Source: a bacterium (GTDB taxonomy: Bacteria > JALSQH01). From it: a stretch of 7,897 bases of DNA. Position 1 is the first letter of the stretch. Each line of letters begins with the position of its first letter. The stretch is taken from contig JALSQH010000211.1 of NCBI GenBank assembly GCA_026985515.1, forward strand, positions 1 through 7,897. The letters are read 5' to 3'. This document shows, in pieces, positions 4,521 through 7,897 of the stretch. The position numbers and the translations under genes are program-made. Under the pieces are notes generated by a model, which searched no databases, was not told the origin of the DNA, and saw only the letters and a list, made by a program, of their open reading frames with translations.

Positions 4521-5117
4521 TTAAGTTTCTTCTTCCCACGCAATTGTAAGTTCAATGTAAGGTGTTTTGTCCTCCCACTCCCCTAGTCTTACAGATTTCA
4601 GTCTGATATTTTTGCAACCTTTCATTTCGAGAAGAGAAGATATACCTCCAATTGTCATATGTTGTAACACCAGTCTGAGCCCGGGAATCTGATACAGGTA
4701 GGGTAAGCCAAGCCTGAAGGTACCCTCATTCTTACCACCTTTCACAAATTCTGCTCTTCCATTTTCAAAGATTTCTGGAACAATTTTTTCCGGGGCATAT
4801 TTGAGTACATCAATTGGCGTTTTGAAAAGAATATTAAGATTTCTCACAAGTTCTCTTTTGATTATTAGTTTTGCTTCTTCTCTTCCAACTTCCTGAATAA
4901 ATTTTCCAAGTCCATTTCCGTAACGATTTTCAGCAAGATTAAGAAGGCTGGTGAGACGAGAGAGAGGATATTTAACATTCTCGAGCACCTCTTTTTTGAG
5001 TAGATCCTTCAGTTCTTCTGGCAGGGTTTCAAGAAATTTTTCATAGTCCTTTTTCCCATAAAGGGTAAGAATAGCGTTTCTCACAGCATAAAAATTTGAT
5101 GCATGAACATTTACCAT
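4521..5117 (-). CDS. Uncharacterised protein, possibly V4R/DUF2378-like sensor domain
   Basis: A soluble 198-residue protein with no signal peptide or membrane segment. I do not recognise it firmly. The helical N-terminal half (residues about 10-90: YGKKDYEKFLETLPEELKDL, then SRLTSLLNLAENRYGNGLGK and EVGREEAKL), a central 'tP..vL' segment, and a strand-rich C-terminus ending in ELTIAW recall the layout of V4R / myxobacterial DUF2378-type ligand-binding domains. It lacks the Cys-containing 'C..rGd..C' turn often found there. This likeness is from memory and weak. The start is the ATG at 5117: a very strong ribosome binding site (5121-5132) lies right before it, and the in-frame ATG at 5138 sits upstream of that site. 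A TATAAT at 5142-5137 serves as likely promoter. It is followed by the Mut7-C gene, probably in one operon, and is divergent from the glycoside hydrolase. Confidence 0.75.
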   Translation of the reverse strand: MVNVHASNFYAVRNAILTLYGKKDYEKFLETLPEELKDLLKKEVLENVKYPLSRLTSLLNLAENRYGNGLGKFIQEVGREEAKLIIKRELVRNLNILFKTPIDVLKYAPEKIVPEIFENGRAEFVKGGKNEGTFRLGLPYLYQIPGLRLVLQHMTIGGISSLLEMKGCKNIRLKSVRLGEWEDKTPYIELTIAWEEET

Positions 5118-5120
5118 TGT

Positions 5121-5132
5121 ATCACCTCCTTT
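5121..5132 (-). promoter_or_regulatory. Full-length Shine-Dalgarno sequence
   Basis: On the minus strand AAAGGAGGTGAT is complementary over 12 bases to the usual bacterial 16S rRNA 3' tail. It ends three bases before the ATG at 5117, and its GGAGG core is seven to eight bases away. It decides the start and predicts strong translation initiation. Confidence 0.85.
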
Positions 5133-5136
5133 GTTC

Positions 5137-5163
5137 ATTATATGGGTTTGGTGAAAAAATCAA
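5137..5163 (-). promoter_or_regulatory. Predicted promoter of the minus-strand pair
   Basis: On the minus strand a perfect TATAAT (5142-5137) is preceded by a weak -35 (TTGATT at 5163-5158, spacing 15; or TTTTGA at 5165-5160, spacing 17). Transcription would start near 5130, so the leader would be only about 13 bases and consist almost entirely of the ribosome binding site. Confidence 0.5.
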
Positions 5164-7564: not shown

Positions 7565-7772
7565 AATAACACTTGATTGAGGATCCCGGCATAAAATCAG
7601 AAAAAACCTTAGAGGAAAAATCCACGGGGTCCAAAGATTTATGGATGAGATACCGGTTTGAGAAGGGTATGGGGAGTTGGTGATAAGGAGGGTGGATAAC
7701 CCCAACTACTTGACTTTTCCTAAAAATTGTAGTATCAAGAAATTGTGAAATGATTTAAATGGGAGGGTTGAT
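7565..7772. other. Non-coding leader region upstream of the repeat-containing gene
   Basis: This stretch of 208 bases has no gene I can support. It shows an 8-bp potential stem (7581-7588 with 7625-7632, one G-U pair, 36-base loop), a G-rich patch around 7666-7696, and a promoter-like pair at 7710-7738. No clear terminator follows the glycosyltransferase. Confidence 0.6.
7710..7738 (+). promoter_or_regulatory. Predicted promoter of the repeat-containing gene
   Basis: TTGACT (7710-7715) and TATCAA (7733-7738) are 17 bases apart. The -35 is good and the -10 moderate (four of six). A start near 7745 would give a leader of about 28 bases that contains the ribosome binding site GGGAGGG (7761-7767), five bases before the ATG at 7773. 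Confidence 0.5.
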
Positions 7773-7897
7773 ATGAAAAACTTTAAATTTCAATTAGTTA
7801 ACTCTCTTCCTTCCTTCCTTCCTTCCTTCCTTCCTTTTAGCACTTTTTCTTCTATTTAACCCGCTTTTAAATTGGGACCTGCATGCAGGTAAGAAGT
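7773..7897 (+). CDS. Putative phase-variable exported protein, OFF in this copy, cut by window end
   Basis: GGGAGGG (7761-7767) lies five bases before an ATG at 7773. The first codons read MKNFKFQLVNS, then enter seven TTCC repeats, which read as Leu-Pro-Ser-Phe units. In this copy the frame ends at TAA 7857-7859 after 28 codons. One repeat fewer (or two more) would shift reading to the frame starting TTA at 7837, which is open to the window end and reads LALFLLFNPLLNWDLHAGKK. The joined product would have a basic start, a long hydrophobic core and a plausible LHA-GKK cleavage site, like a signal peptide. One repeat more would hit TAG at 7838. The downstream frame has no ATG, GTG or TTG of its own before the window end and has a stop (TAG, 7795) just before the repeat, so it seems to need this start. 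The function of the mature protein is unknown. Confidence 0.6.
7807..7834 (+). repeat. Tetranucleotide tract, (TTCC) x 7
   Basis: Seven uninterrupted TTCC units, with a matching C before and TT after (7806-7836). The unit length is not a multiple of three, so each gain or loss by slipped-strand mispairing changes the reading frame of the gene beginning at 7773. Three units make 12 bases, four codons (Leu-Pro-Ser-Phe). Confidence 0.97.
7877..7890. repeat. 14-base perfect palindrome ACCTGCATGCAGGT
   Basis: The sequence is identical to its reverse complement. It falls within the downstream reading frame of the repeat-containing gene. A palindrome of this length is expected about once in 16 kb by chance, so it may mean nothing; a protein-binding site is possible. 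Confidence 0.5.

Follow-up and report, generated by a model that had tools for sequence, protein, structure and literature searches.

A TTCC tract in predicted signal-peptide DNA and its sister loci in an uncultured bacterium: a candidate family of frame-switched genes

The leader and repeat tract at the end of contig C211

The window analysed here is the complete contig C211 (7,897 nucleotides), part of a 2.36 Mb genome assembled in 268 contigs and estimated to be 97.6% complete. Because the window is the entire contig, position 7897 marks an assembly break and not the end of a gene, and the contig stops there because the sequence at that point recurs elsewhere in the genome. Close to this end, behind a glycosyltransferase gene, lies a short leader open reading frame (ORF) containing a run of TTCC units (Table 1). 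Read as an array it comprises 7.75 copies of CTTC at 7806–7836, and the perfect tract within it begins 34 bases past the ATG and ends 63 bases short of the contig end. The putative promoter was not called by the automatic scan because its −10 element is weak; −35 motifs of the TTGAC(T/A) type also occur upstream of sister leaders. Comparison of the window with Rfam returned no match, and thus no known riboswitch.

Table 1. Features at the end of the window (C211)
Feature	Position	Strand	Remarks
Putative sigma70-like promoter	7710..7738	+	TTGACT 7710–7715, 17-base spacer, TATCAA 7733–7738; recognised by eye
Ribosome binding site	7761..7767	+	GGGAGGG; kept as GGGAGGGTNGA in 4/6 of the first leaders found
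Leader ORF as assembled	7773..7859	+	MKNFKFQLVNSLPSFLPSFLPFSTFSSI, then stop; 28 aa, OFF frame; ATG 7773
Candidate switched gene, 5' part	7798..7897	+	Open frame LTLFLPSFLPSFLLALFLLFNPLLNWDLHAGKK..., without its own start codon; probable continuation into C171
Candidate contingency tract	7807..7834	+	TTCC x7, within hydrophobic core of predicted signal peptide
TAG	7838..7840	+	Ends translation at unit numbers 2 mod 3 (5, 8, 11)
TAA	7857..7859	+	Present-frame stop

An initial annotation of the window had described a ribosome binding site and ATG ahead of seven perfect repeats, followed by one frame stopping at 7857, one stopping at the TAG at 7838 and one open to 7897. All of these coordinates proved exact on rechecking, and the three frames behave as described. 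It had also been argued that only unit numbers divisible by three connect the ATG to the open frame, and simulated changes of unit number agree: 3, 6, 9 and 12 units lead into the open frame, 4, 7 and 10 to the present stop, and 5, 8 and 11 to the TAG. The resulting OFF products have 28 codons with seven units and 23 with eight. A start codon belonging to the downstream gene itself, which would have bypassed the tract, was looked for, and the open frame was found to contain no ATG, GTG or TTG before 7897. Translated in the ON frame, the N-terminus is MKNFKFQLVNSLPSFLPSFLLALFLLFNPLLNWDLHAGKK, with a basic start, a hydrophobic core and LHA before G.

An open frame that closed shortly past 7897 would have counted against a switch; with the help of other contigs it could instead be followed beyond the end of the window. 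In the sister locus C106 it remains open to the end of that contig, 198 bases past the last position of C211. The minus strand of C171 starts with 102 bases that are identical to C65 and differ from C106 at three or four positions, the last base of C106 included; beyond these shared bases C171 diverges and continues for 596 codons in the matching frame (L107, 8396 to 6609, minus strand). The genome holds three leaders of the TTCC type (C211, C106 and C65), and because C65 is already continued by sequence of its own and C106 conflicts with C171, by elimination C171 most likely continues C211. The gap to be bridged would be 95 bases; in C106 and C65 the corresponding interval has exactly this length. 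If this join holds, the ON protein would have ~668 amino acids with six units, and one residue class of unit numbers would lead to a long ORF with the others stopping early. ORFs of 1214, 529 and 439 codons come next in C171, with starts that resemble lipoprotein signals. Searches of the C171 protein against Pfam, NCBIfam and PADLOC gave no match.

Elsewhere in the window, a 205-aa ORF on the minus strand (4521–5138) adjoins a Mut7-C RNase gene and has no match in Pfam or NCBIfam; we take it to resemble DUF2378-type myxobacterial proteins.

A family of leader loci in one genome

A similar tract, or what remains of one, is present in at least eight sister genes of this genome. We count nine loci in all (C211, C106, C65, C205, C207, C11, C96, C110 and C168) and exclude C13, which has a leader without a tract. 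A DNA search with the leader retrieved C106 (91%), C65 (78%) and, weakly, C205; a pattern built on the ribosome binding site and first codons added C207 and C13, and a looser pattern added C11. The ACCT class (C96 and C110), whose leaders start MKLN, was found by a repeat scan and a homologue search from it. The motif MK[NS][FVI]KF[QE] is common to six other loci, with the variant MKSKRFQ in C168. This leader peptide is kept while its codons vary (AAC, AAT, AGC or AGT; TTT or TTC), which points to translation.

Four different units occupy the same signal-peptide position: TTCC (seven units in C211, four in C106, two in C65), TCAT (six in C205), TCAC (six in C168) and ACCT (six in C96). Leader C168 (MKSKRFQRLVSSLTHSLTH) follows the frame plan of the others with its TCAC unit. 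Between the ATG and position 7897, the only difference between C211 and C106 is 12 bases, equal to three TTCC units. They are nonetheless separate loci, as their upstream neighbours differ, a glycosyltransferase gene for C211 and a transposase-like one for C106. Length variation is therefore seen between paralogues, with seven and four units in a sequence otherwise the same after the ATG. That the repeat number might be constant had been named as a possible objection to a switch; within this one genome the three TTCC paralogues have 7, 4 and 2 units.

Several members have features of their own. C96 (L245, 2328–2351, minus strand) and C110 (L273, from 1558) form the ACCT class, with leader MKLNLPTYLPT... 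and a signal peptide that is read in a different frame; they are near-identical over their 5' third before diverging, and C110 terminates with a stretch of G followed by CSETPGQDEVTIFFAVYMWIFLVKRR, resembling a C-terminal sorting tail. C168 (L277, from 1333) has TCAC x6 where C205 has TCAT x6, the unit apparently having been replaced through the whole array, and its signal peptide and 675-codon ORF stand in different frames, which implies a second frame break. In C65 (L009, 6334 down to ~4600) the leader with two TTCC units is followed by a pseudogene that several stops and frame shifts interrupt; further along are repeats of a PQQ-like beta-propeller and 589 bases shared with C171 at 94.6% identity. 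C207 (L030, ~9055–9107) has a single frame shift midway through the subtilase domain of an otherwise long predicted surface protein, for which Pfam gave a subtilase match along with weak bactofilin and DUF7305 matches. The C96 protein had no match in PADLOC.

Tetranucleotide arrays were counted in 1,325,357 bases (1.33 of the 2.36 Mb) of the same genome. Four reached at least 4.75 copies (C211, 7.75; C205, 6.25; C96, 6.0; C106, 4.75), each of them confined to the opening 65 bases of a leader ORF that follows a ribosome binding site; none was found elsewhere in the scanned 1.33 Mb. The fifth long array, TCAC x6 of C168, comes from outside this sample. Three order-2 Markov simulations of ~1 Mb each produced one four-copy tetranucleotide array in all and none longer. 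The perfect tract of C211 is longer than expected by chance, its unit is not a multiple of three, and it stands between the start codon and the body of the gene. A repeat with a 9-base, frame-keeping unit was seen in C32 (L055, 302–341), where 4.4 copies of TCTTTCTCC encode, on the minus strand, EEKEEKEEKEEKE in a DnaJ-like and helix-turn-helix-like protein.

Signal peptides were judged by hydrophobicity (best 15-residue mean within the first 50 amino acids) and by eye. C211 scores 2.13 in the ON frame versus at most 1.14 in its OFF products, and across the nine loci the scores are 1.8 to 2.8 ON versus at most 1.35 OFF. The first start codon within the open frame lies 37 codons in for C106 (TTG), 33 for C65 (TTG), 26 for C11 (ATG) and ~70 for C96 and C110 (ATG), in every case beyond the signal peptide. 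Two leaders are followed by downstream starts: C13, where a leader without repeats (MKSVKFQLLSSFKGGAQQ, then a stop) precedes its own AAAGGAGG and ATG, and C205, which has its own downstream lipoprotein start. A strict switch is thus inapplicable to these two, and the leader may only modulate.

The offset between leader and open frame is +1 in C211, C106 and C110 and +2 in most others. Programmed frameshifting was ruled out, since this offset differs among loci and there is no common slippery site. An origin from a mobile element was also rejected: a transposase-like ORF adjoins C106, and none was found beside the other leader loci examined.

A probable frame switch and its alternatives

By sequence criteria, C211 is very probably a translational simple-sequence contingency locus. 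Transcription would start upstream of 7761 and ribosomes at ATG 7773, and strand slippage during replication would alter the number of four-base units and with it the reading frame. With 3, 6, 9 or more units in steps of three, the ribosome would enter the ~668-codon gene, whose product would be secreted or surface-located (ON); with seven units, as assembled, or eight, it would meet a stop once 28 or 23 codons, respectively, had been read (OFF). A step of three units would add only LPSF to the hydrophobic stretch, such that every ON length would keep the signal peptide. Slippage in living cells, export and surface location are what we infer from these features. The suggestion already made from the window, that its ON/OFF logic is that of phase-variable surface genes, gains support from the nine-locus family, the intact downstream frame and the opa and autB precedents. 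Against a switch stand the small number of units, seven compared with about 5–50 in most Haemophilus tracts (PMC2651432), the lack of an ON allele among the nine loci, a bias that broken genes would show as well, the decay of C65 and the further frame breaks in C207, C11 and C168, the downstream starts of C13 and C205, and the same-family genome G001, where TCAY arrays are absent and the homologue is missing the signal-peptide region.

The assembly shows every one of the nine loci OFF, an outcome expected with a frequency of (2/3)^9 = 0.026 under random phase. This is also what one would see if C211 were the remnant of a once phase-variable gene, its tract real but the locus locked OFF and decaying as C65 has done. 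Decay is evident in the family: C65 has become a pseudogene, the frame is shifted once in C207 and once in C11, and C168 has its second break. However, C211 retains seven perfect units, and its probable continuation is an intact 596-codon ORF at the head of the three long ORFs in C171. The two ACCT genes also speak against decay. Over 726 aligned codons C96 and C110 share 71% DNA and 65% protein identity with a dN/dS of 0.47; changes are most frequent at third positions, alignment gaps comprise whole codons, and both frames are free of stops, with both genes OFF as assembled. This sequence comparison demonstrates purifying selection on two silent sisters. Their frames are undecayed though at present they lack a start near the beginning, and therefore ON states must recur. 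We regard a locked remnant as an unlikely explanation of C211.

The first 120 codons of C96 and C110 share 97% DNA identity and the remainder has diverged; The pair C65 and C171 shows the same pattern, a shared 5' part followed by divergence. Recombination may keep the common front of these genes and vary the rest.

Less probable again, and to our minds distinctly improbable, is that the leader acts as an upstream ORF, a short MKxxKFQ peptide controlling the downstream gene by translational coupling or attenuation, for which an out-of-frame arrangement would be normal. Every leader does end at a stop as assembled, and the downstream starts of C13 and C205 speak for such control. However, C211, C106, C65, C11, C96 and C110 have no start before or inside the signal peptide, so reinitiation could not yield an exported protein from these six loci, and fixed coupling would forbid the mixture of +1 and +2 offsets. 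A chance repeat or an assembly artefact, which the position of the tract beside a repeat-induced contig break might suggest, has next to no probability and is already refuted by the sister loci, as at least five independent loci carry long arrays of four units at one gene position, none such arose in the simulated genomes, and C205 and C96 are both well away from any contig end.

Lineage and comparison with known systems

The neighbours of the tract had been thought unlike those of Haemophilus and Neisseria, and the genome's GroEL is indeed closest (72–76%) to deltaproteobacterial MAGs, an affinity only. Among the genomes searched there is one same-family relative, G001, which has no TCAY array and whose homologue of the C207 N-domain lacks the signal-peptide part. 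Among 59 genomes (its own and 58 others) and 84,980 species, the leader pattern turned up nowhere but in its own genome, so there was no orthologous locus to compare.

Most known cases of frame switching by short repeats come from animal-associated bacteria, with immunity as the usual explanation. Here we tentatively propose, with a little less than even confidence, that a deep, uncultured and probably environmental lineage has a whole set of contingency loci, in which paralogous surface-protein genes share a signal-peptide cassette whose unit has been swapped (TTCC, TCAT, TCAC, ACCT) with place and function kept, and in which near-identical 5' and divergent 3' parts suggest variation of the cell surface through the combined action of slippage and recombination. 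Nine or more such loci in a lineage of deltaproteobacterial affinity would raise other selectors of random ON/OFF surface proteins, among them phages, predators and attachment. Contigs broken at repeats in metagenome bins may hide such genes, which would be annotated as short peptides or started too late.

The closest parallels come from Neisseria and Haemophilus. In the opa genes of Neisseria, CTCTT repeats lie in the region encoding the leader peptide (PMC3960869). As in our loci, where a surface location is a prediction, scattered paralogues carry a repeat in the signal-peptide DNA of surface proteins, and the frame read from a fixed ATG depends on the number of units. Unlike them, opa has a pentanucleotide, one unit in all paralogues and beta-barrel adhesins as products; here four tetranucleotide units head unrelated proteins in a distant lineage. 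With TTCC in place of CTCTT and no Pfam match for the C171 protein, C211 falls outside the opa family. In autB/autA of Neisseria and Haemophilus, AAGC repeats lie in signal-sequence DNA, and most meningococcal strains carry an intact autB out of phase (PMC5118866). The tetranucleotide repeat in signal-sequence-coding DNA soon after the start codon and the predominance of the OFF state (here 9/9 loci) are shared. However, AutB is an autotransporter with repeats right after the ATG, whereas in C211 they lie further in, within the hydrophobic core, and no autotransporter domain was found with Pfam. The tetranucleotide loci of Haemophilus influenzae (lic2A, hgp and others; PMC2651432) resemble the present loci in their tract at the coding 5' end, in frame-based ON/OFF control (probable here) and in surface-related genes (predicted here), but their tracts are longer and encode mostly hydrophilic repeat peptides, and many targets are glycosyltransferases and not signal peptides. 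A small literature search found no report of such a locus set in this part of the tree. C211 would thus work like opa and autB, with nothing to indicate homology to either: the mechanism is already known from these systems, and what is new is its candidate members in a deep uncultured lineage.
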